IMG/VR virus record: IMGVR_UViG_3300021425_000117
Coordinates: 1-30,549 of that record
Source: a virus
DNA length: 30,549 nucleotides
Reading direction: 5' to 3' (one strand)
In this document: positions 4,623 to 29,501 of the stretch, piece by piece
Numbering within the stretch: position 1 is the first letter of the stretch
Layout of the letters: every line of letters starts with the position of its first letter
The notes under the pieces: generated by a model
Seen by the model: the letters and a program-made list of their open reading frames with translations, nothing else
Told to the model about the DNA's origin: nothing
The model's database searches: none
Position numbers and translations under genes: made by a program

Positions 4623-7600
4623 ATGGCAATTATTTCTCAGACTGACAAATACGGCAAAACACACCAGTTTCAGATTGCCGGAAATGTTCCGTCTGAAACA
4701 GAATCCGCTCGCGTTCAATCATATATGAACAGAGCTAATGGGGTCAGCGCACCAGAAGAAGCCCCAAAAGCCGGTTTAATTCAGTCTGGTAAGGCTGGTA
4801 TTCAAGGACTGCAATCTGATTTCTATGGCGGCTTGGAAACTATTGGACAGAGTGCCGGAAGTGATTGGCTGCAGGAAATTGGTAGGGCTGGCAGAGAGCG
4901 TAATGCTGCAGAGCAACAGGCCATATTGCCAGATGAGCAGAGAGCAGATCCCGGATTTAATGCTGCCTATGCTAAACAGGCTGTTGGTGAAACTGCACCC
5001 TATATGGGGCTTGGACTAGCGGGTGGTTTTGCTGGTCAAGCCATCGGTGGTGCCATTGGTACTGCCTTATTGCCCGGTCCCGGCACCGTAGCTGGTGGAC
5101 TTGCAGGCAGAGGAATTGGTGCGCTATTAGGCTCTGCTGCTTCTTATTTCCTTCCTCAAACTGGTAGCGCCGCTTCTAGGCAGAGAGATGCTTATGGCAC
5201 TGTAATTAATCCAGAATCAGCTATGGCTGCTGGTGCTTTAACATCTTTAACTGAAGCGGTTATGGATAAATTCCTATTATTGGGTAGATCCAAACTTCTT
5301 AGTGCCGCTGCATCAAAAGGAATACAGATTCCTGAGAAGGTGGTTAAGAGCAAGGTTGCAAATATTCTTGCAGACACCGCTGCTGGTGGTGGCATTGAGG
5401 CCGCTCAAGAAGTCAGTCAGGCTATGATTGAGCGCATTAGCGCTGGCCTTCCTCTTGATGACGAAGAGGCTATGTATGAATACAAGGTCGCTGGCCTCAC
5501 TGCTGCTGGTATCGGCGGTGTTATGGGTGGTGGTGCCGGTGTAATCAAGCATGGGCTTTATGGCAGAAAAGATCGTAAGAATGCTAAAATAGATAAAGCT
5601 ATTAATGAGGATATCGCCAAGCGCACAGATAAATTCAGAGAATTTGCACAACCTGAAAGTTTGAGGATTGAAAATCAAGCTGCAGCATTTGCGCCAGACT
5701 CCAATGAGGTTCGCGGACCTGATGATCCAATGAAGGAAGGCATTGATATTGTTGATCATTCTAGAAGCGCAACCAATAAAAAATATGCCTTGGAAATTTT
5801 TGGGTCTAAAGGCCCATCAGTTGGTGAATATAGCTGGCAGAATGATTCTGGCAAACTGGTAAACCCCGATGGGAAATACACCACACGGGCAGAAGCTGAA
5901 TATGCGGCGAGACAAGACCTAGCCACATTAAAAGAAGAAGAGCGCCAGAGAACGGAAGCGTCTGAAATTATTAGTAAGCAGCTTAATCTTGGTGAAATAA
6001 ATACACCAAGAAGGGCTTTTGGCAGAGAAGATGCTAAATTTAAAAAGCTTGAAGATGTTCAAGAGGCTCTTAAAAAGAATCCCACAACTTTCAGAGATGA
6101 AAATGGAAATGTTGTAAAGGTTAAGCCAAGCGATATTAGCAAGAGCAAAATTAAGGCATTGCATGAAAAGGCTTTACCTAATATTAAACCTGAAGTAAGG
6201 GACAATACTGATCCAAGACTATTGGCTCTTGAGTATCTGTCCAAGCTTGAGCAGAACAATATTGACTGGCGCATTAATGAAGCACAGAAAGCCCTTGAAA
6301 AATACCGCACTGGCAATAAGGCTCTCAACGACAGCACTAAACAGCTTATTGACACCGCTGGTGAAGCTGGTGTTCCTGAGTCTAAGCTTATTGATATCCT
6401 TAAAAACAACAAAACTCAAAATCTCACTCAACAAACCAATGATGCACGAAAGGAGATCAAAAATCTTCTTGATGCTGGAGTGATTGTTCCGGCAACCCCT
6501 GTTAGTCAGGACGGTAGCGAAACTAATTATAAGCTATCTCTCAATAAATCCTACAGAAGAATGTTCCAAATTACGGAGCAGGAAGACACAAAGGGTAGAA
6601 ATAATTTTGTTGTTACTAGCCCAAATGGTGATGTTAATCAGGATATAAATCAAGTCGGTGGAATCCCTGAAGAGCTTAATAAACGAGAAATAACGCCAGA
6701 ATCTCAGGGTGGTGGACCCACCGTCACTCCTCAAGAAAAATATGAAACAGATCGCATTAGAGCAAGCGCTCCTATTAGGGCATTTTCTACTAGACAAGAA
6801 GCTGAAGACTTTATCAAGGAAGAGCTTGGACGAGTAACCACTAAAGAAAGAATAGATCGTGAGAAGAAGCTTGAAGCAGAGCGACAGGCTAAAAACTACG
6901 ACACAATAGAAAATACCAACTTAAGAGCGCAGAAGCTTGGTATTAACAGTGTTAGGCAACAGTTTAGGCGTATTTTGGACCAGATGGGCTTGCCTGATGC
7001 GGCACTTAAGCTTGAAGCTGCATATGATAAGCATAATTCTGGACGCACTATTGAAGGCTCTTACGAACACGACACTATAACAATATTTTGGGATATCTAT
7101 CAAAAGGGCATCTCTGAGGGTGAAATTAAAGCAGAGCTTGCTAAGGTGATGAACCATGAAGTTATTCATGCTGTTCGTCAATTCCTTAAGCCTAATGAAT
7201 GGAAAGATCTGACAAATCACGCTGCCAAAAAGAAGCGGGTGGTTGATGGTGTTGTCCGTCCATACACATATCTTCAGTGGGTCACAAAAACCAATTCCAA
7301 TGAGCAGGGTGTTTTGCGGGATGGAATGACCAAAACTCAGCTTGAAGAAGAAGCTGTTGCTGAAATGTTCCGTGACTGGAATGATAAGCCAGCCGCAATC
7401 ACTGGTCGTCCTGCATCTCTTTTGAACAAAATTGTCAAATTGTTTAAAGCTCTGTTTAGAATGGCAGATGATGACAGGATGAACCAGATCTTCCGCGAGA
7501 TTTTAAGCGGTAAGGTTGCATCGCGCACCGCTGCAGACGGGGTTGAGGGCCGCTCTGAACTGAGACAAACGCTATACAATGCAATTAATAATTATGGTAA

Positions 7601-11843: not shown

Positions 11844-12314
11844 TTAATCAAATGGATTGAGCATATCTTGAGATATCCAAATAGCCGGACGACCAGTATT
11901 GAACTTGTCACTAATAGGAACTTTCAGGGCTTCTTTTCCCCAAATCCATCCACATATTTCAAATTCTAGACCGCTTTTTGTGGTGAGGAGTACATAGCGA
12001 TGGTCAGGTATCGTATCATCCTGTAGGATAAGATGTGCATCTGACCTGTCTCTCGCTTTTACCTCCCAATTTGGTGCAACATCAGCAGCCCGAAAATCAA
12101 ACATGCCTGTTGCGTATGAACCAATAAATTTTGCGAATGCTAATTCACCTAAACATCCAACAACATGTTTTTTCAAACCACCGGCAATAGTTTCACAAAG
12201 ATTGTTGCGAGGTTTACGATCAAGAGCTACATTTTGTGCTTGCCGTATGATTGCTGCCTGACAACCCCAAAGATATTCCCCTGAGTTTAGTATGACTGTT
12301 GGCTTGGTTTTCAT
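11844..12314 (-). CDS. PD-(D/E)XK-like protein, 156 aa (paralogue A)
   Basis: Last gene of the leftward operon; its ATG overlaps the upstream stop as ATGA. The order of conserved blocks suggests the PD-(D/E)XK nuclease fold: GELAFAK around residues 56-62 (E57), ADV with D78, and an E84-V-K86 strand, followed by a beta-rich half and an Arg/Asp segment (KARDRSDAHLIL). It resembles the 163-residue product encoded at 18668-19159 through four aligned blocks: E-[LI]-A-x-A-K, R-A-[AD] plus ADV, [DG]-x-L-I-[LI], and a final W-I-x-Q. This copy keeps the E-x-K signature and is therefore the better candidate for an active enzyme. It could be a phage recombination or anti-host nuclease. Family-level confidence is moderate and no biochemical role is claimed. 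Its stop lies nine bases from the convergent giant gene with no strong terminator between. Confidence 0.8.
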   Translation of the reverse strand: MKTKPTVILNSGEYLWGCQAAIIRQAQNVALDRKPRNNLCETIAGGLKKHVVGCLGELAFAKFIGSYATGMFDFRAADVAPNWEVKARDRSDAHLILQDDTIPDHRYVLLTTKSGLEFEICGWIWGKEALKVPISDKFNTGRPAIWISQDMLNPFD

Positions 12315-12905: not shown

Positions 12906-13389
12906 CAATCTTCCACTCCTTACTGCCAAGCATGTTAATATATGAATTTGTCCTAACTGCTTTGCCCCCATTTACTGTAGCTTGAGTTTTTGTAGCTTCA
13001 AGGCGCAGCCTACAATTAATTAAGCCGTCTTTGTTGCTAATCTTTTGGACTAGCAATACCCTAGACGGGACTAGAAACAAAAATCCGACAAAGGATACAC
13101 ACAAGTCTGCTGCCATTCTTATGCCTGTCTCTACTTTATCCCAAGTTACAAGCCATTCGAAATTATATGGATCAGATTTTAGCTGCTCAATTGTCATTTG
13201 TCTACATTTTGTTTCAGCTACTGATATAATTACACCGTTCTTAACAATCATTGCGTCTATACGGGAGGCTTCATTTTTAGGAGTTTCAATATAGCTGATA
13301 TCATATTGTTTTTCTACAAAATTCTTGACTTGCTGCTCCTCAATTAATGTTTTCTGCCCGGCCACTGTGTTAACATCCAAGCTACTCAT
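12898..13389 (-). CDS. PD-(D/E)XK-type nuclease, 163 aa
   Basis: The N-terminal half has the layout of a restriction-endonuclease fold: a helix with acidic residues (E18/E19), then RIDAMIVKNG with D45, then a strand VAETKCR giving E59-x-K61. The spacing D45 to ExK is 13 residues, normal for this superfamily. The C-terminal half contains a hydrophobic strand pair and basic residues, with no second domain recognised. It overlaps eight bases with DUF4406 upstream and eight with the diphosphohydrolase downstream, so the three are a translational unit. Similar small nucleases in phages act in recombination, junction or flap processing, or host DNA degradation; which applies here cannot be told. 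It does not look paralogous to the pair at 11844 and 18668 beyond the shared fold. Confidence 0.75.
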   Translation of the reverse strand: MSSLDVNTVAGQKTLIEEQQVKNFVEKQYDISYIETPKNEASRIDAMIVKNGVIISVAETKCRQMTIEQLKSDPYNFEWLVTWDKVETGIRMAADLCVSFVGFLFLVPSRVLLVQKISNKDGLINCRLRLEATKTQATVNGGKAVRTNSYINMLGSKEWKIDV

Positions 13390-13783
13390 AAATTATCTCC
13401 AATCCTAACGCGCAAGCAATGCAATGCTCAGCCCTAGCTCCACGACTTTCCTCCCATCCTCTGAGCATATACACTCCGTCAGCATTGTCAATAAGCCATT
13501 TACAGCTATTACCAAACACCACTCTGTAGGAAATATCCTGTAAAGCATCATCATCTTTTTCCGGCACCCAATCAACCGCCTTTTCCAAGAACGCCCGATC
13601 AACATCTGGTGGTGAGTAGATTACAGAATACCCCAAACCAGCTAACATATTCCTAGCCTTGTCAAAGGCGGGGAAATTAAAGTGTTCAATACCAGTCATT
13701 GGTCCAGCTATATATATAGAATAGTCTTTTGCTTCATTTCGTGATTTCTGTTTAATTTCAAGCTTAATTATATTGTTGTCCAT
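13382..13783 (-). CDS. DUF4406 nucleoside 2-deoxyribosyltransferase-like protein, 133 aa
   Basis: The motif order YIAGPMTG (residues 24-31), FNFPAF, a G-Y-x-V strand, SPPDVD, W-x-P, ADGVYMLRGWE near 101-111 and a final ESRGARAEH helix is that of DUF4406. Its fold is related to nucleoside 2-deoxyribosyltransferases. Such proteins move or release bases from deoxynucleosides or their phosphates. In phages they often sit near nucleotide-metabolism genes, as here with the dATP/dGTP diphosphohydrolase. The family's exact substrate is not settled. The acidic segment around residues 73-84 may be a substrate loop. The ribosome site is weak; the 34-bp dyad element at 13825-13858 lies about 40 bases upstream and is the best candidate for its control signal. 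Confidence 0.85.
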   Translation of the reverse strand: MDNNIIKLEIKQKSRNEAKDYSIYIAGPMTGIEHFNFPAFDKARNMLAGLGYSVIYSPPDVDRAFLEKAVDWVPEKDDDALQDISYRVVFGNSCKWLIDNADGVYMLRGWEESRGARAEHCIACALGLEIIYE

Positions 13784-13824
13784 TTGTTTGTCTTATGCTC
13801 CTATCTGGACTCTTGGTATCGACG

Positions 13825-13858
13825 CGATGGTAAAATATATGTTACTAGAGTTAATCAG
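13825..13858 (-). promoter_or_regulatory. 34-bp dyad element, copy 1
   Basis: This stretch matches 24960-24993 at 32 of 34 bases. Its centre, GTAAAATATATGTTAC at 13830-13845, is a 16-bp dyad with one mismatch; the flanks CGATG and CTAGAGTTAATCAG are also conserved. It lies in a 141-base gap upstream of the DUF4406 gene, in the same orientation and at a similar distance as copy 2 to its gene. I see no good sigma70 -35/-10 pair inside it. It may be an operator or a phage-specific promoter. The rest of the gap (13859-13924) shows nothing I can name. Confidence 0.6.
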
Positions 13859-13924: not shown

Positions 13925-14548
13925 TCATCCGACAGACACCGCGTCCTTGGTAAATGCAGTTTCCTGTGGGTTACGACGCCCAACCTCAGCGTGCCACGTC
14001 ACAGGGGCCATTGTTCGGTAATCAATCGGGAGACTATGATCTGTGAATGAATCATCTCTCCATCGAATCCGGTTGTTGGGTTGAGCCGCTATCTGTCCGC
14101 TTCCGTCCTCAAGCAAGAGGAAATGGTAGCATTTATGTTCTGGAGGATATTGGCTAAAACCATTGTCTGTATGATCAAGCGTGAACCAGTACGCCGCTGG
14201 AACCATCGTCCCGTCCGGCTGGCGATATTCGCACCCCATCTCACGCAAAAATTCATATTGGCAGACTGAAAAATCCCACCCGTGACAATCCCATGATTGC
14301 AAATCATGTAAATCGTGCCGAGTGGCGGTATCTTCGGGAGTATCCCATAAGAGCATATGCAGCGGTATGCGAGCAAATTGCGCACCGGATTCGCACATGA
14401 TCGAAAAGTGCAAGGCTCTGGATGGAATGCTGGTCACGCCAAATATGACGCAACGCTCCGTTTCACCAACCCCGGATTCTAATCCTTGCAAAATTTCACG
14501 GCGGACATAACCATAAAGATGCTGCGGAATAGATGCGTTCATTTTCAT
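13925..14548 (-). CDS. Conserved phage protein of unknown function, 207 aa
   Basis: The pattern LQSWDCHGWDFSV (near residues 83-95), a YRQPDGTMV strand, ...YWFTLDHTDN and IAAQPNNRIRW is one I recall from hypothetical proteins of podovirus-like phages of marine and alphaproteobacterial hosts. No enzymatic role is known to me. The protein is beta-rich, soluble, with no signal peptide. The first ATG at 14548 has an AAGG ribosome site eight bases upstream and is preferred over the one at 14542. By eye, the gene is clearly richer in G and C than both neighbours, suggesting a different history. It starts 21 bases after the 66-codon gene. A 10-base string, GTCCAGATAG, occurs just before its ribosome site and again upstream of the DUF4406 gene. 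Confidence 0.75.
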   Translation of the reverse strand: MKMNASIPQHLYGYVRREILQGLESGVGETERCVIFGVTSIPSRALHFSIMCESGAQFARIPLHMLLWDTPEDTATRHDLHDLQSWDCHGWDFSVCQYEFLREMGCEYRQPDGTMVPAAYWFTLDHTDNGFSQYPPEHKCYHFLLLEDGSGQIAAQPNNRIRWRDDSFTDHSLPIDYRTMAPVTWHAEVGRRNPQETAFTKDAVSVG

Positions 14549-14569: not shown

Positions 14570-14770
14570 CTAGTGTTTTCTGCGTGGAATTGGAATTTGA
14601 TCACAACTAACTGTACCGGAAGTATCGGGATGTTCAAGCATTTTGTCTAATATCCGCTCCGCCTGAACAGCACATTCCACCTCAGAAAGATTGTGAGCTA
14701 GAACTGTTCTATTCTCTTCAAATCCACCATAAAACAATACTGTAGTTACAGTAAGTACGAGATTAAACAT
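14570..14770 (-). CDS. Small protein with N-terminal hydrophobic segment, 66 aa
   Basis: The first 15 or so residues (MFNLVLTVTTVLFYG) form a short hydrophobic stretch that could be an uncleaved membrane anchor or a signal peptide without an obvious lysine-rich start. The remainder is acidic and contains two cysteines (residues 33 and 56 by my count) that could form a disulphide if exported. The start codon shares one base with the upstream stop (TAATG), indicating coupled translation. I recall similar short 'gFeE'-type proteins in alphaproteobacterial phages, all without function. An envelope location is plausible but uncertain. Confidence 0.6.
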   Translation of the reverse strand: MFNLVLTVTTVLFYGGFEENRTVLAHNLSEVECAVQAERILDKMLEHPDTSGTVSCDQIPIPRRKH

Positions 14771-15024
14771 TAGACTTCCCTACCTGTTTGTTCTATCCAG
14801 TTCTTTGAAAGCTCAATCACAGCATTCCTTCTAGTTTTGAATGCGGGGTCTTTCATTCTACGATCATAATGCATCCTAGTCGCACGCTCTGATTTACCAA
14901 CCTTTTCAGCTACTTCCCTAAAAACATAACCTTGATGCCTATAATACACAATCCTATCAGTGAGTTCTTTGTATTCCTGCTCTTTTAACTTGCGCTTAAG
15001 AGCGGCTCTATCTTCTCTGTTCAT
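14770..15024 (-). CDS. Small helix-turn-helix protein, 84 aa
   Basis: A basic N-terminal helix (residues 1-28) is followed by a helix-turn-helix candidate around residues 33-57: GYVFREVAEKVGKSERATRM has the spacing of sigma70 region 4 or phage-type HTH motifs, and basic recognition residues follow (HYDRRMKD). It could be a transcription regulator of the leftward operon or a small DNA-binding accessory protein. Its ATG overlaps the upstream stop as ATGA and its own stop shares a base with the next start, so it is embedded in the operon rather than being an autonomous repressor gene. No ligand domain is present. Confidence 0.65.
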   Translation of the reverse strand: MNREDRAALKRKLKEQEYKELTDRIVYYRHQGYVFREVAEKVGKSERATRMHYDRRMKDPAFKTRRNAVIELSKNWIEQTGREV

Positions 15025-16671: not shown

Positions 16672-17441
16672 TCTCCGGTTTGGGCCGCTTTACGACCGGG
16701 CTTTTTATCCATAATGGCAAGATAGCATGATGTATATAGCTCTTCATCATGTTGCTTCATAGCTTGCATTGTGTCCTGATTGTTAGTCCACAATTGCTTG
16801 ATATCAGGCCATCTATGAATTTCTGCAAATGTTTTGACAATAGTTGCGGTGGATTGCCATCCAGCCTCTGTAGCAGGCACAGGCAGGATTGTATCAGGAT
16901 CTACAGTTTCCCTAGTAGGAGTGTCTACAGCCTGTACAGCAAGCTCTGTGATGCTCTCAGGGGCCTTTAAAGGGCGAGTCAGTACCTCCTTAACCGATAC
17001 CTTTTCCGGCACCACTTCATTGCCAACTCCTGAATGAACCTCTGGATCATCACCAGTTTCAATCTGAAATAGCTTGAAGAGAAGATACTTATTAGCTCCA
17101 GTCAGGGCTTTGTACACACCCTTGTCTCCAACCATACCATTCTTAGCACGATCATTTCCACAACCAGCCATACGAATCTTCTCAGGCCACACATCACCGT
17201 TCTTGTGAACCAGTGTGTATTCTACCTGAATTGTAGTGTTACCAAAATCATCAATCTGTTCTACTTGTGACACACTAGGAATAAGGATTAGTCCTTCCTC
17301 AATCATAGCTGGTCGCAACACAGCCAGAAGGTCAGCTTCTCCTGCATAGTTGTATCTATGGAAATCGTTTGTTTGTCCCTTCTGCACATAAGAAACCTTA
17401 GTCATAATGTTGTGCAGTGCGGTAGCGATTGTCTTGCTCAT
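16668..17441 (-). CDS. erf: ERF-family single-strand annealing protein, 257 aa
   Basis: The N-terminal two thirds match the ERF family: helix MSKTIATALHNIMTKV, F-H-R-Y-N-Y-A near residue 30, LRPAMIEEGLIL near 43-54, a V-x-Y-T-L strand, and the diagnostic ALTGANKYLLFKLFQIETG near 112-130. ERF proteins anneal complementary ssDNA, rebuild or circularise phage genomes and stimulate recombination. The C-terminal third is Pro/Thr/Val-rich and probably a linker before a small helical end. It overlaps the RecB-like nuclease upstream and the SSB-like gene downstream by ATGA, giving an exonuclease-annealase-SSB set. Length is within the family's range. Confidence 0.92.
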   Translation of the reverse strand: MSKTIATALHNIMTKVSYVQKGQTNDFHRYNYAGEADLLAVLRPAMIEEGLILIPSVSQVEQIDDFGNTTIQVEYTLVHKNGDVWPEKIRMAGCGNDRAKNGMVGDKGVYKALTGANKYLLFKLFQIETGDDPEVHSGVGNEVVPEKVSVKEVLTRPLKAPESITELAVQAVDTPTRETVDPDTILPVPATEAGWQSTATIVKTFAEIHRWPDIKQLWTNNQDTMQAMKQHDEELYTSCYLAIMDKKPGRKAAQTGE

Positions 17442-18525: not shown

Positions 18526-18687
18526 TTACCCCTTTCTGGCGCTTATCAACGCCAAAACTTGTCCACATACTCGCTTGTTAATAGCGTTTCTCATTGTGGT
18601 TAAATCTGAATTTTTATGGGCTGAAAGAGCGTCTTTTACTGCACCGTCGACAACATTCCAGAGAAGCTTATAAGCTGATTTGTTCAT
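18526..18687 (-). CDS. Small conserved-type phage protein, 53 aa
   Basis: The reading frame begins at an ATG with GAAAGG upstream (spacing about six) and overlaps the end of the upstream gene by 20 bases. The product is a two-helix-like protein: WNVVDGAVKDALSAHK, then MRNAINKRVCGQVLALI. The pattern 'AV-DA---H' followed by 'R-I-KRV-GQ-LAL' is one I recall from short phage and prophage hypothetical proteins, so I regard it as real. Function unknown. The structured gap to the next gene follows it. Confidence 0.6.
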   Translation of the reverse strand: MNKSAYKLLWNVVDGAVKDALSAHKNSDLTTMRNAINKRVCGQVLALISARKG

Positions 18688-19159
18688 GGCAACCTTTCAA
18701 ATTTTGATATAACTCATTTTGTGGAATCCACCAACAATCTTCATGCTTAAATTTATCGCATTTTGCTTCCTTACACAATATAGATCCGATTATATGTAAG
18801 GTAGGCAAATTACCTGTTGTTATAAAAACAAATATTTCATCTGGATTATTGTCATTTTCTCTTATAATTAGCCTACCATCTAATCTCGGTGTAGATCTAA
18901 CCTGATATTGTCCAACATCTGCTCTTTTAAAAGAATTTACTGATCCATCCCAATAAATATTTAAATACTTTGCTAAGGCTATTTCTGAACAAGCTCCATC
19001 AAAATCCGTATTCCAATCAGATTTATATGTGTGTTTACCGGCATTATAGCCTTGATTCCTTGACTTTACCCTTCGCATCGTTCCTACTTGCCCTGCAATC
19101 ATCATCTCAACAGGAGTTAAAGTGATTGTGGAGATCTTTTGATTACCTTTTATTGACAT
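18668..19159 (-). CDS. PD-(D/E)XK-like protein with altered core, 163 aa (paralogue B)
   Basis: First gene of the long leftward operon, behind a promoter and dyad at 19184-19232. It aligns by blocks with the product at 11844-12314: E59 in SEIALAK, ADV with D81, then Q86-V-R88 where the paralogue has E-V-K, then DGRLIIRE, a FVFITT strand and a final WWIPQ. The substitution of E-x-K by Q-x-R may be a family-typical variant or may signal loss of catalysis with DNA binding kept. I remember many phage proteins with a similar 'DVG-x-x-VR-T' segment but no tested function. Being the first gene made from the operon, it may act early, for example as a nuclease or as a decoy or inhibitor. Confidence 0.75.
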   Translation of the reverse strand: MSIKGNQKISTITLTPVEMMIAGQVGTMRRVKSRNQGYNAGKHTYKSDWNTDFDGACSEIALAKYLNIYWDGSVNSFKRADVGQYQVRSTPRLDGRLIIRENDNNPDEIFVFITTGNLPTLHIIGSILCKEAKCDKFKHEDCWWIPQNELYQNLKGCHEQISL

Positions 19160-20276: not shown

Positions 20277-20296
20277 TAAGAAGCACCTTTCAAATT

Positions 20297-20468
20297 AAAG
20301 TAAGAGAAGATCTCTTACTTAAAGTAAGAAATCATATCTTACTTTATTTCTTCTTTTTTCTTCTCTTACTTTTTTTCTTCTCTTACTTTCTTTTCTTTTT
20401 TTTGTTTTCTTACTTTTTTTCTTCTCTTACTTTCTTGATTAGTAAGAAAAGAACTCTCTTCTTACTAA
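20297..20468. repeat. Array of ten CTTACT/AGTAAG repeats in a polypyrimidine tract (origin or operator candidate)
   Basis: CTTACT occurs at 20314, 20338, 20365, 20382, 20409, 20426 and 20461 and its complement AGTAAG at 20299, 20323 and 20441, nearly always inside a longer TCTTACTTT-like unit. Two perfect 10-bp inverted pairs are AAGTAAGAGA/TCTCTTACTT (20298-20320, 3-base gap) and TTAGTAAGAA/TTCTTACTAA (20439-20468, 10-base gap). Between 20345 and 20440 the plus strand is almost pure T and C. This fills most of the 366-base gap before the primase-helicase gene; the remaining part, 20503-20642, is AT-rich with nothing else named. Confidence 0.8.
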
Positions 20469-20473
20469 TTATA

Positions 20474-20502
20474 GACATATCACGTTTCGAGACCTGTGTC
20501 AA
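20474..20502 (-). promoter_or_regulatory. Sigma70-type promoter reading leftward through the repeat array
   Basis: On the minus strand TTGACA (20502-20497), a 17-base spacer and TATGTC (20479-20474). A TATAAT-like string lies just downstream at too long a spacing. Transcription would start near 20467, giving a leader of about 190 bases that contains the array before the ATG at 20276. Confidence 0.5.
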
Positions 20503-20642
20503 GATGAAAATTGCCAGAAAATTGAGAAAATACCAAGAAAATGGTATGTTCTTGATTTTTCTCGACATTTTTTTCACAAAAAGATTTCTTGCTTCCGGCA
20601 CCAAAATATGGTTGATTGCCGGGACCAAACGACGGAGGTGCT

Positions 20643-23567: not shown

Positions 23568-23999
23568 TTATCCTTTATGAACAAGAGCTTGATGATATTC
23601 ACACCATGACCCTATAGGTGAAGCTGACCTATTCCCACAAAACAAATGGACAGAAGCATCATCTGGTGTTGTGGGATATCTACAGGTGGATGGCTTAAGA
23701 TCTAATATACCAACCTCCAAAGACACGGGTATAGGTATGTCTATAACTTTGCGCTTAACAGGTGTAGCTGGAAACTTAACATTGCGCGTGGAGTTTTTCT
23801 TAATATATCTTTTGATTTTCCTATCGTTGCCCCTAGGTGCGCGCGCTGGCCATTTCTGCCTATGCCACATACCAATCACTGAGTTCCTAGTACGTCCCGG
23901 TAAAGTATCGGCTATTACTTGAGCGGAAGCACCATTATCAAATAGCTCTCTAGCAATTTTCAATTCAAGAGAAGTCCAAGGATTGTCAACTGTTTTCAT
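23568..23999 (-). CDS. gcrA: GcrA-family transcription regulator, 143 aa
   Basis: The N-terminal helix-turn-helix (residues 8-50; SAQVIADTLPGRTRNSVIGM, then a W-H-R) matches GcrA, whose typical form is 'SA-IA--LG--TRNAVIGK-HR'. A basic linker (56-85) leads to the C-terminal module C106RYP, F-C121-G and W-C133-E-Y-H, also typical of GcrA. Cellular GcrA of Caulobacter is about 173 residues, so this is somewhat short. GcrA binds sigma70 and activates promoters near CcrM-methylated GANTC sites. A phage copy could divert host RNA polymerase to phage genes or disturb the cell cycle. Start at 23999 has GGAGG upstream. A consensus extended -10 promoter lies just before it. Confidence 0.9.
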   Translation of the reverse strand: MKTVDNPWTSLELKIARELFDNGASAQVIADTLPGRTRNSVIGMWHRQKWPARAPRGNDRKIKRYIKKNSTRNVKFPATPVKRKVIDIPIPVSLEVGILDLKPSTCRYPTTPDDASVHLFCGNRSASPIGSWCEYHQALVHKG

Positions 24000-24038
24000 T
24001 TGATCCTCCATAGGTGATGGGAATAAATCCCACCACCC

Positions 24039-24047
24039 ATTATACCA
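24039..24047 (-). promoter_or_regulatory. Extended -10 promoter before gcrA
   Basis: On the minus strand TGG directly precedes a perfect TATAAT (24047-24039). No good -35 box is seen at 16-18 bases. The wider string AGTGTGGTATAAT resembles the terminase promoter at 29489-29501 (AGTGTGGTATACT). Start expected near 24032, about 33 bases before the gcrA ATG. Confidence 0.6.
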
Positions 24048-24049
24048 CA

Positions 24050-24157
24050 CTAACGGTTATGTCGTAGCTTATTGTACTTAATATGTGGCTGTCCGTTTCT
24101 CATAACTCTGGAAATAACGGCAACCATTTTACCATTCTGGTATAGGTAAGATCCCAT
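24050..24157 (-). CDS. Possible 35-residue micro-protein
   Basis: An ATG shares a base with the stop of the 251-residue gene (TAATG) and opens a 35-codon frame, MGSYLYQNGKMVAVISRVMR and then a basic end, stopping at TAG. It fills most of the gap before gcrA, and TAATG coupling is used elsewhere in this genome. It is basic, has no cysteine and no recognisable motif. Its end lies close to the extended -10 promoter of gcrA, so the gene would be read only from the upstream transcript. Confidence 0.35.
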   Translation of the reverse strand: MGSYLYQNGKMVAVISRVMRNGQPHIKYNKLRHNR

Positions 24158-24912
24158 TACAACATTTCTCTTTTAACAGCACCAATAACCACTCGCTTCA
24201 ATGCGGTGCGTGAAGTTTTGGCAGTTTTACCTAGACCTGTATATGGTATTGATGTTTTACCATCAGGTCTATCTTCAATTTTAAGCCAGCTTAAGTGCAT
24301 AGGCTCTATGGTTAGTTGTGGTTTTGAATTATATTCCTTGATATTACTAATGTCTAATACCAACGCTTCAGCAATTTTAGCTCCTTCAAAATCTGAATTA
24401 TCCTGTATATTATTTATATCCATTATAAACTTACCACTAACAATAGATAACTTTTGTTGATAAACCTTTTGAACATAGCCAGCCCTAAAGTTTAATTTTA
24501 TTGTCTGGCCTCGATATGTTGGTTTAGGTAGTTCATTTGGATCTCCTAGCTGAACATCCCACCTCACTGTAGGTTTCCATGTATCAAGTGCTGTGTTAAT
24601 GCTTGACATTGTATTGTTTATTCTAGTTTGTAGTAAGGTTTTATCTGAGGTTTCAGATATTCTTTCCCTATAATTACTAATAGAATTTCTCATTTCTCTA
24701 AACGCTTCTGCAATGTCGTATAAAAACCTATCTTCATTTAAGTGTTTTATTGAATTGTTAGAGTATGCTAGAACATCTTTAACGATCTTCACCTTACCAT
24801 TGAGAAATGTATTATATAGTTGCTGTAAAGATTCTTTTTGCCTTTCCATGTACTTAAATGCTTCTATTGGTCCGGCTTGAGAATAGTCTTTAAGGCTATA
24901 TTTGCTGGTCAT
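24157..24912 (-). CDS. Hypothetical protein, 251 aa
   Basis: Not recognised. I prefer ATG 24912 (MTSKYSLKDYS, GGA upstream) over 24927. The first 120 residues are helical and Asn/Gln-rich, with a possible coiled coil (EAFREMRNSISNYRERISE). The second half is beta-rich and basic, with WDVQLGDPNELPKPTYRG and LNFRAGYVQKVYQQKL, and ends in a very basic tail (TSRTALKRVVIGAVKREML). It follows the VWA/metallopeptidase gene, with a GC-rich hairpin and the second 34-bp dyad element between. It may be a substrate or partner of that system, or an unrelated DNA-binding early protein; nothing decides this. Confidence 0.65.
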   Translation of the reverse strand: MTSKYSLKDYSQAGPIEAFKYMERQKESLQQLYNTFLNGKVKIVKDVLAYSNNSIKHLNEDRFLYDIAEAFREMRNSISNYRERISETSDKTLLQTRINNTMSSINTALDTWKPTVRWDVQLGDPNELPKPTYRGQTIKLNFRAGYVQKVYQQKLSIVSGKFIMDINNIQDNSDFEGAKIAEALVLDISNIKEYNSKPQLTIEPMHLSWLKIEDRPDGKTSIPYTGLGKTAKTSRTALKRVVIGAVKREML

Positions 24913-24938: not shown

Positions 24939-24960
24939 GCTAGGCCATGACTGGCCTAGC
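24939..24960. other. Perfect 9-bp hairpin between leftward genes
   Basis: GCTAGGCCA (24939-24947), loop TGAC, TGGCCTAGC (24952-24960). It directly abuts the 34-bp dyad element. There is no T run on either side, so it is not a classical terminator; it may be a processing site, a pause site or a protein-binding site. The remaining bases of the gap hold the dyad element and the upstream stop. Confidence 0.6.
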
Positions 24961-24993
24961 GATGGTAACATATATGTTACTAAAGTTAATCAG
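24960..24993 (-). promoter_or_regulatory. 34-bp dyad element, copy 2
   Basis: It matches 13825-13858 at 32 of 34 bases. Here the centre GTAACATATATGTTAC (24965-24980) is a perfect 16-bp palindrome. Its upper end covers the last codons of the VWA gene and its lower end is 47 bases before the ATG at 24912. Position and orientation relative to the downstream gene match copy 1, supporting a regulatory role. Confidence 0.65.
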
Positions 24994-26104
24994 CGGGGAT
25001 TTTAATCACCTCCCCAAAAGGAGCCTCCTCGCTACCGGTAGTGGCCCACAATACAGGGTAGTTAGGGGCAATACCAGCTAGATCACTGTGATCTATATAC
25101 AAATCAGTAAAAAAGATTAAGGAATCAGGTTGAATACCCTGATCTTCAACCCACTTAAACACAGGTGCTAAGTTAGTGCCACCGCAGGCATACCTACGCT
25201 TATCATCGAATTCCTCATCAGCCTCATAAGTTTGTGTATGGGCAATTACAGTATCGCACCATACAACATGAGTCTTATATGGCTTCAACTCATTGTGTAT
25301 GTGACGCAAGTTACCAAGGAACTTAGACAATTCAACCTTACTCACTGACCCACTGGAATCAATACCAATCACAATTTCACCGGGACATTTATAATCAACC
25401 ATAGGAACACAAGCACCCTGATAAACTGCATAGATAGAATTAAACCTACGATAACTCCAATCATCAGGATTAGTGCCGCCGATAAATGTTTGCATACGCT
25501 CCTCCCAATCAATAGAAGGTTTGGAATATTCATCAATTAATCCATCAAAGCCTTGTGGCATTTTACCATGAGCTTTAGCAGATTGTGCAGCCTGTAATAC
25601 ACTCACCTTAATGTTAGCTTCTTCCATAGATGTTTTAGCTGCATCACCTACTGATTCGCTATCTTCTACCATACCCCATTCACAAGGTTGACGGCGTTTA
25701 GCCTCCTCTTCTATTTCGGGTTGATTATATATCTTCTCAGCAGTCCAGCCTCTATATTTCTCATCAATCAACCCACCTTCAGGCAATTTAAAGCCATTAT
25801 CAACCAACATAACATTGATTGCATAATCACAGGCAATGTTCCATCTAACGGGATCTCTATCGCCGCGCCTTAGATGGTGGAGAAAGGCAATGTGCATAAC
25901 CTCATGCGCCATAACCCCAACAACTTCTTCCTTAGTTAAGGAGTTTACCCATTCTTCGTGATACCAGATATATTTACCGTCAGTAGCCATAGTATATACA
26001 CCAGCTTTTTGACTGGATGGATACCGCATAGCTAATGACCCAAAGAAAGGATGTGAAGTAATAAGCTTCACCTTAGCTAATGTTATGTTGTCATATTTAG
26101 CCAT
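24986..26104 (-). CDS. VWA-domain protein with zincin-type metallopeptidase domain, 372 aa
   Basis: N-terminal metallopeptidase-like domain: AHEVMHIAFLHH with H67-E68-x-x-H71, followed by RWNIACDYAINVML, typical of the putative metallopeptidase that accompanies VWA domains (DUF2201/PF13203-like). C-terminal VWA-like domain: MIDAS residues D249-x-S251-x-S253 in GIDSSGSV, T310 in CGGTNL and D334 in FFTD. The segment between (residues 130-200) is charged and probably a linker. VWA proteins paired with MoxR ATPases act as adaptors for remodelling target proteins, and here a protease-like domain is fused. The gene is third after the MoxR-like and partner genes, spaced 12 bases, with GGAG upstream. 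Cellular target unknown. Confidence 0.88.
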   Translation of the reverse strand: MAKYDNITLAKVKLITSHPFFGSLAMRYPSSQKAGVYTMATDGKYIWYHEEWVNSLTKEEVVGVMAHEVMHIAFLHHLRRGDRDPVRWNIACDYAINVMLVDNGFKLPEGGLIDEKYRGWTAEKIYNQPEIEEEAKRRQPCEWGMVEDSESVGDAAKTSMEEANIKVSVLQAAQSAKAHGKMPQGFDGLIDEYSKPSIDWEERMQTFIGGTNPDDWSYRRFNSIYAVYQGACVPMVDYKCPGEIVIGIDSSGSVSKVELSKFLGNLRHIHNELKPYKTHVVWCDTVIAHTQTYEADEEFDDKRRYACGGTNLAPVFKWVEDQGIQPDSLIFFTDLYIDHSDLAGIAPNYPVLWATTGSEEAPFGEVIKIPAD

Positions 26105-28138: not shown

Positions 28139-28546
28139 CTACGCCGCTTTGTCATGCGACAAATCGTCGCGCATTGCTTTAAGTTCTTCTATAGTTTCCC
28201 AACATTTTACAGTAGCTTCTCTCTTAGTGCTGACCTTAATAGGGTATCCTAGTTGAGTTAAAAGAAGCAGTTTCATGTCGTCTAAAGTGAGATTCCAATT
28301 AGTGTGAGTTGATTGTACGTTTTTGCCTTCAATAATTTGATACCCATATACTGAGTAGTCTCCCTCTTTTATATAATTACCCTTTTTATAATCGTTTATT
28401 GACTGAAATGCTGAATTTGTTTTTATAGAATGATTAATATAATATATCATTCTTCCAGTTCTGATCTTGAAATGATGCCAATGCTCAACACTCCAATCTG
28501 AAAACATACGAGAAACCCTATAGGGTAGTTTATGTAATTCAGTCAT
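28139..28546 (-). CDS. Hypothetical protein, 135 aa
   Basis: Not recognised. ATG 28546 has AAGGA eight bases upstream. The product has an aromatic, basic N-terminal part (FSDWSVEHWHHFKIRTGRMIYYI), a YSVYGYQIIEGK strand and a helical end (TIEELKAMRDDLSHD). The last codons contain a 17-base string that recurs, with the same spacing to TTGCTT, upstream of the terminase promoter (29453-29478). No known active-site motif is present. Its position just before the MoxR-like gene suggests an early gene. Confidence 0.55.
   Translation of the reverse strand: MTELHKLPYRVSRMFSDWSVEHWHHFKIRTGRMIYYINHSIKTNSAFQSINDYKKGNYIKEGDYSVYGYQIIEGKNVQSTHTNWNLTLDDMKLLLLTQLGYPIKVSTKREATVKCWETIEELKAMRDDLSHDKAA
28154..28179. 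repeat. 17-base repeat with TTGCTT, copy 1 (inside a coding end)
   Basis: ATGCGACAAATCGTCGC at 28154-28170 is followed, after three bases, by TTGCTT; the same arrangement occurs at 29453-29478. Here it lies in the C-terminal codons of the 135-residue gene. Its GCGAC/GTCGC arms can pair. No -10 box follows at a suitable distance here. Confidence 0.6.
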
Positions 28547-29452: not shown

Positions 29453-29478
29453 ATGCGACAAATCGTCGCAGGTTGCTT
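29453..29478. repeat. 17-base repeat with TTGCTT, copy 2 (over the terminase promoter)
   Basis: The same 17 bases as at 28154-28170, followed by AGG and TTGCTT. Here TTGCTT is the -35 box of the promoter at 29473-29501. The outer bases also pair as AACCTG/CAGGTT. A protein binding this dyad would sit at the -35 region. Confidence 0.6.
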
Positions 29479-29501
29479 AATGCTAATAAGTGTGGTATAC
29501 T
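29473..29501 (+). promoter_or_regulatory. Sigma70-type promoter of the terminase gene
   Basis: TTGCTT (29473-29478), a 17-base spacer, then TATACT (29496-29501) preceded by TGG as an extended -10. Start expected near 29508; ATG at 29595, with GGAG-containing ribosome site just before it. Best promoter in the window. Confidence 0.75.

Follow-up and report, generated by a model that had tools for sequence, protein, structure and literature searches.

The DNA analysed here (the window) is a 30,549-nt fragment of a viral genome with a G+C content of 42%, for which no nucleotide relatives were found in the phage collection. Two of its segments, at positions 13825-13858 (copy 1; CTGATTAACTCTAGTAACATATATTTTACCATCG in the mRNA sense) and 24960-24993 (copy 2; CTGATTAACTTTAGTAACATATATGTTACCATCG), both read on the minus strand, are identical at 32 of 34 positions, and the sequences aligned on either side of them are unrelated. 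The mRNA-sense consensus is CTGATTAACT[C/T]TAGTAACATATAT[T/G]TTACCATCG. Copy 1 is placed in the 141-bp gap that separates a phrog_3704 gene (13925-14548, minus strand), with PurM-annotated relatives in cyanophages and pelagiphages, from a gene for a DUF4406 protein resembling nucleoside 2-deoxyribosyltransferases (13382-13783, minus), whose start at 13783 lies 41 nt away. Copy 2 is found between the gene for a DUF2201 metallopeptidase/VWA protein (24986-26104, minus) and that for a 251-aa protein (24157-24912, minus), 47 nt from the start of the latter at 24912. Copy 2 overlaps the last bases of the VWA gene (24986-24993), which places a TAA stop codon inside the conserved element and makes copy 2 partly coding. 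A preliminary description of this DNA was accurate about the match, the shared strand sense and both distances. Its term "intergenic" suits copy 1 but does not wholly fit copy 2, with its stop codon, and of the "two leftward operons" to which it assigned the element, the leftward genes are present but both copies occupy internal gaps of leftward runs rather than positions ahead of an operon's first gene.

Two further features of the gene complement can be recorded. The phrog_3704 protein shares 62% identity with a PurM-annotated protein of Pseudanabaena phage Pam5, a much closer match than other window proteins gave in comparisons with the phage collection, and on this resemblance the gene has possibly been exchanged with cyanophages. 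The run of recombination genes has a phrog_18407 gene at either end (11844-12314 and 18668-19159), the two being paralogues.

By our own arithmetic, about 1e-7 such pairs of 34-mers are expected by chance in 30.5 kb, and the window's sole other pair agreeing at 32 of 34 positions belongs to a pyrimidine tandem of low complexity (20354/20398). Because the VWA stop codon of copy 2 is kept in copy 1, where none is needed, the duplication is real and not driven by coding. The core of copy 2 (24965-24980) is a perfect 16-bp palindrome, GTAACATATATGTTAC, as had been reported, and the equivalent core of copy 1 (13830-13845; GTAAAATATATGTTAC on the plus strand) contains one mismatched pair. When up to three mismatches to GTAACATATATGTTAC were allowed, exactly two matches were obtained in the contig, with 0 and 1 mismatches, and a search of the window for degenerate further copies yielded no intergenic near-palindrome within five mismatches. 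A perfect 16-bp palindrome somewhere in the window is not rare (simulated mean 0.7); its occurrence within a given 34-mer of the same composition is rare (201 of 200,000 shuffles). Adjoining the core, a 13-bp flank is conserved on one side only. As one of the two differences between the copies falls in the palindrome, the dyad has not been preferentially preserved.

Other repeats occur in the window. A second duplicated inverted repeat, ATGCGACAAATCGTCGCnnnTTGCTT, is present at 28154-28179 and 29453-29478 (23 of 26 positions identical); one copy precedes the AAA gene by about 62 bp, and the other lies upstream of the terminase small subunit gene. The region 20277-20615, just before the primase gene, combines pyrimidine-rich 17-bp tandem repeats with overlapping inverted AAGTAAGAG/CTCTTACTT repeats, and is a candidate replication origin. 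A site for site-specific recombination, considered for the 34-bp element by analogy with loxP, was rejected: the element lacks 13-bp arms, and no recombinase was recognised among the window proteins scanned.

A palindrome of this kind could act either as DNA or as a hairpin in the transcript, where it might terminate or attenuate transcription or mark a site of processing. Copy 2 can indeed fold a 6-bp hairpin beside a strong 9-bp hairpin, and a hairpin, CTAGGCCA-GTCA-TGGCCTAG, is located between copy 2 and the start of the 251-aa gene (24940-24959, minus) and is absent at copy 1. In copy 1, however, a single unpaired change removes the hairpin and the element alone yields -0.8 kcal/mol (z +0.99), which weakens the RNA reading; the copy 2 element itself folds no better than its shuffles (z -0.23). 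Neither a T run nor an Rfam match accompanies the element. We therefore consider action through RNA very improbable, and the loss of the hairpin from copy 1 argues that the palindrome functions at the DNA level.

Searches of IMG/VR, phage and bacterial records did not turn up the 34-bp sequence anywhere else as a recognised element of non-coding DNA. An exact scan of IMG/VR returned four matches (L003-L006), all inside long open reading frames in which the match encodes DG[N/K]IYVT, and these are thus taken to be coincidental. A corresponding scan of bacterial genomes gave one match, in a Bacteroidales genome, and blastn of the element against the phage collection gave matches at E >= 0.8 only. 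The preliminary description had recommended a search for further copies, and the outcome is mixed: the exact sequence was found in no other phage, but related phages do keep an element of the same kind.

These relatives were fetched with the VWA protein, which identified about 80 IMG/VR loci at 35-41% identity; searches with the 256-aa, AAA and 297-aa proteins returned no loci. In relatives represented by long contigs, the window gene order is mirrored: a MoxR ATPase and VWA gene are accompanied by a primase-helicase gene on the opposite strand, followed by RusA, exonuclease, SSB, HNH and 150-aa genes and a convergent giant protein. The window encodes homologues of the AAA, VWA, primase, RusA, exonuclease, SSB, HNH, 150-aa and giant proteins in this mirrored order. 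In most members of this syntenic group, a palindrome particular to the lineage recurs, in up to 37 copies, typically about 10-30 nt upstream of start codons. Repeats inspected in a few relatives proved to be lineage-specific palindromes ahead of ribosome-binding sites, and a systematic scan of the relatives obtained through VWA showed the pattern in dozens, each lineage having a single class of repeated palindrome. The classes comprise GTTCAATTGAAC-like palindromes, which are the commonest, together with GTTCTATAGAAC, GTTACATGTAAC, GTTAACGTTAAC, ACGCATATGCGT and GGTGCAACTTGCACC; the open-access literature searched contained no paper presenting any of the six as a phage element. With at most one mismatch, GTTCAATTGAAC sites number 5-14 in each of nine records of 27-62 kb; the reversed pattern, used as a control, had 0.

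In palindrome count, most genomes of the syntenic group lie above simulated controls. No excess of repeated palindromes was detected in five phages outside the syntenic group: the pelagiphages HTVC027P and HTVC023P, DSL-LC04, 023Pt_psg01 (related through its terminase only) and CRP-7. Within the group, one genome (G004, locus L067) lacks an excess and two others (G005 and G006) show only a weak one, so the repeated palindrome is common but not universal. Simple open reading frame calls on 19 loci assign about 10% of the DNA to gaps, yet 74 of the 135 sites are found there; as the calls were crude, the number of sites counted within genes is probably inflated. The gaps with sites include those of co-directional and of convergent gene pairs, and the sites often extend over stop codons. 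One A+T-rich relative (L079) additionally contains clusters of CTAGTTATAACTAG palindromes at 5613-5672 and 17335-17405.

The primase and terminase led to a cultured relative, Planktothrix phage Pag-Yong1 (OL906435). It has the gene order of the group and an annotated AlpA-family regulator that matches PF05930 at E 2e-4; no paper naming this phage was found among the open-access papers searched. Its genome (L109, L110) contains 37 sites of the GGTTCAGCCTGAACC type that differ from GGTTCAG[C/G]CTGAACC at no more than two positions, including 14 perfect matches, whereas 200 palindromes with scrambled arms gave no matches. Of the 37 sites, 19 lie between genes, where 9% would be expected (p 2e-11), and many are positioned 9-28 nt before an annotated start. 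One site (27423) occupies the gap between the VWA gene and the next gene, and another lies 10 nt upstream of the AlpA-family gene. The Pag-Yong1 gene that follows VWA is not detectably homologous to the family of about 250 aa that follows VWA in other relatives.

That family (A2) provides a link between the window and its relatives. Comparison of the window 251-aa protein with A2, a single-pair hhalign alignment, gave a probability of 73 and E 3e-5 over 95 columns, relative to E 0.2-0.3 for unrelated window proteins. Because hmmsearch with the family did not recover the 251-aa protein, the homology is suggestive only, and we describe this protein as a putative remote relative of the family. 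The ~250-aa gene has 39 distinct leaders in relatives, of which 15 contain the palindrome class of their lineage with at most one mismatch and 17 with at most two; the sites in those 15 lie 8-53 nt, mostly 8-29 nt, upstream of the gene start. Copy 2 resides at the VWA/~250-aa junction, where many relatives carry their repeated palindrome. No orthologous counterpart of the copy 1 junction was identified in the relatives. The distance from palindrome to start codon is 46 nt at copy 1 and, depending on the start chosen, 37-52 nt at copy 2, outside the 8-29 nt usual in relatives, and the fragment holds two copies, one imperfect, in 30.5 kb against 5-37 in relatives' records. No relative of the element was found at the DNA level: its sequence matches none of the relatives' palindromes, and its conserved 13-bp flank lacks a counterpart in them. 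The window element may plausibly be a divergent instance of the dispersed palindrome set.

The junction also bears on whether the element is simply a short mobile or recombinational boundary sequence, recently copied between two junctions with no regulatory role. Such an origin would account for the sharp ends, the 94% identity between unrelated flanks, the dyad broken by one of the two differences and the failure of the exact non-coding element to appear in any other phage or genome searched. It fits poorly with the co-orientation of both copies in the leaders of leftward genes and with the palindrome that relatives keep at the copy 2 junction, and a target-site duplication is visible at neither copy. 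We consider this origin improbable.

A candidate for the binding protein is suggested by gene order. In most relatives covering the stretch, the gene directly behind the 150-aa gene encodes an AlpA-like helix-turn-helix (HTH) protein (PF05930/PF12728), and in several lineages a palindrome overlaps or abuts the stop codon of this gene. AlpA-like and other HTH proteins are, from this position, candidates for binding the palindromes. The Pseudomonas antiterminator that shares the name AlpA (PMC7969949, PMC9371919) was weighed as a possible model for the mechanism. In one relative (L007), the region of this slot contains a weak Cro/CI-like candidate (E 0.065). A profile of the relatives' AlpA-like proteins found no match in the window fragment, where the slot is filled by an unrelated HTH protein of 84 aa (14770-15024, minus). 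This protein is predicted to be all-helical with a helix-turn-helix (pLDDT 87.7), and its matches in the PDB are weak HTH matches only (best E 0.2). It is not AlpA-like, and its position alone makes it a candidate binder of the element. An HTH_3 repressor, entertained as a common regulator, was discarded after being found in only 3 of 17 records and not in the window.

The element might instead be a phage-specific promoter, in which the whole 34-bp block, given direction by its one-sided conserved flank, is read by phage-modified or phage-encoded machinery to start transcription of the DUF4406 and 251-aa genes. The element is promoter-sized, and its co-oriented copies stand 41 and 47 nt upstream of the starts. 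A sigma70 scan (-35/-10 hexamers, 16-18 nt spacing) gave no match overlapping either copy, which upholds the preliminary description in its failure to fit standard boxes. Its further proposal of a dedicated factor stays conjectural: no single-subunit RNA polymerase (PF00940) was found in the window fragment or in 14 relatives' records, the enzyme being present in CRP-7 only. In addition, the comparable palindromes of relatives also lie between convergent genes, where they could not start a gene, the copies number just two, and promoters do not usually have a dyad at their core. We regard the promoter reading as unlikely.

Host cell-cycle regulation offers another conceivable role, in which the element would be a binding site for CtrA or for GcrA. 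The phage encodes a GcrA homologue (23568-24050), suggesting an alphaproteobacterial host, and CtrA-bound sites of alphaproteobacterial phages (PMC9437464) are likewise short A+T-rich inverted repeats in regulatory gaps, with TTAAC also occurring in the element. On direct reading, however, the CtrA motif TTAA-N7-TTAA is missing from both copies. GANTC is contained in neither; a single GACTC lies at 13808, and there is none near copy 2. Among the 17 records searched, GcrA is confined to the window phage and is absent from its 16 relatives. The earlier nomination of GcrA as binder therefore finds no support, and we consider a site for either regulator very improbable. As a separate observation, AGTGTGGTATA, an extended -10-like motif, occurs at 24041-24051 (minus) and 29489-29499 (plus), followed by AT and CTAT, respectively. 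Since the former overlaps the GTG start called for GcrA, the true GcrA start may lie downstream.

On balance, we lean, by a little over even chances, towards the 34-bp element being a cis-acting operator at two internal junctions, through which a phage HTH dimer, most likely of the 84-aa protein, controls the leftward gene behind each copy. The preliminary description had offered an operator or a promoter, and the operator is the better supported by the DNA-level palindrome, the shared junction and the HTH slot. In the mechanism we envisage, a dimeric phage DNA-binding protein would bind the dyad GTAACATATATGTTAC, perhaps also contacting TTAAC, a neighbouring half-site within the conserved 13-bp flank. 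Once bound, it would stop or gate RNA polymerase, either at the junction itself or at a promoter nearby, so that transcription of the gene behind would be controlled. The flank could hold TTAAC as a third half-site, or could mark recent duplication. Protein binding, the identity of the binder and the sign of its effect are what we infer. The presence of relatives' sites at convergent gene ends favours roadblock or stoperator-like action, or a broader role in DNA organisation, over promoter function.

The stoperators of cluster A mycobacteriophages (L5 and its relatives) are asymmetric sites of 13 bp to which the repressor binds as a monomer, halting elongation (PMC9283540). One phage protein there acts at many short sites in short intergenic gaps genome-wide, and the window copies share with these their transcription sense and gap position; the number of Pag-Yong1 sites is likewise comparable. 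In contrast to stoperators, which number twenty or more per genome, the window sites are palindromic dyads, two in a 30.5-kb fragment, and are known from sequence. Operators of the CI/Cro type also present an inverted repeat sized for an HTH dimer, and the window copies have a small HTH gene nearby, within the same run of leftward genes. Unlike CI/Cro-type operators, they are at internal junctions, with neither an adjacent promoter detected nor an HTH_3 repressor in the window. With the palindromes of the MoxR-VWA group, the window has in common the gene order, a palindrome between VWA and the next gene and an HTH gene in the slot, but differs in sequence, in its 16-bp A+T-rich core with conserved flank, in having two rather than 5-37 copies and in its greater distance from the start codon.

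Good descriptions of operators dispersed across a whole phage genome exist for few groups, mainly the mycobacteriophages. Although such operators are thus already known from stoperators (PMC9283540), the palindromes of the MoxR-VWA group seem to be undescribed. More tentatively, and with less confidence than for the operator itself, we suggest that this group may control its genes through genome-wide palindromes whose sequence changes by lineage along with the HTH protein in the slot; Pag-Yong1 would be a member, and the window phage a divergent one in which regulator and operator have both been swapped. The window element on its own would be an ordinary, minor regulatory site. Pag-Yong1, as a cultured phage with 37 candidate sites, offers a direct test case for group-wide control. 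If such control exists, a second, unrelated group of phages with palindromic, lineage-specific sites would show operator and regulator diverging together, and these sites might define immunity groups among uncultured phages.
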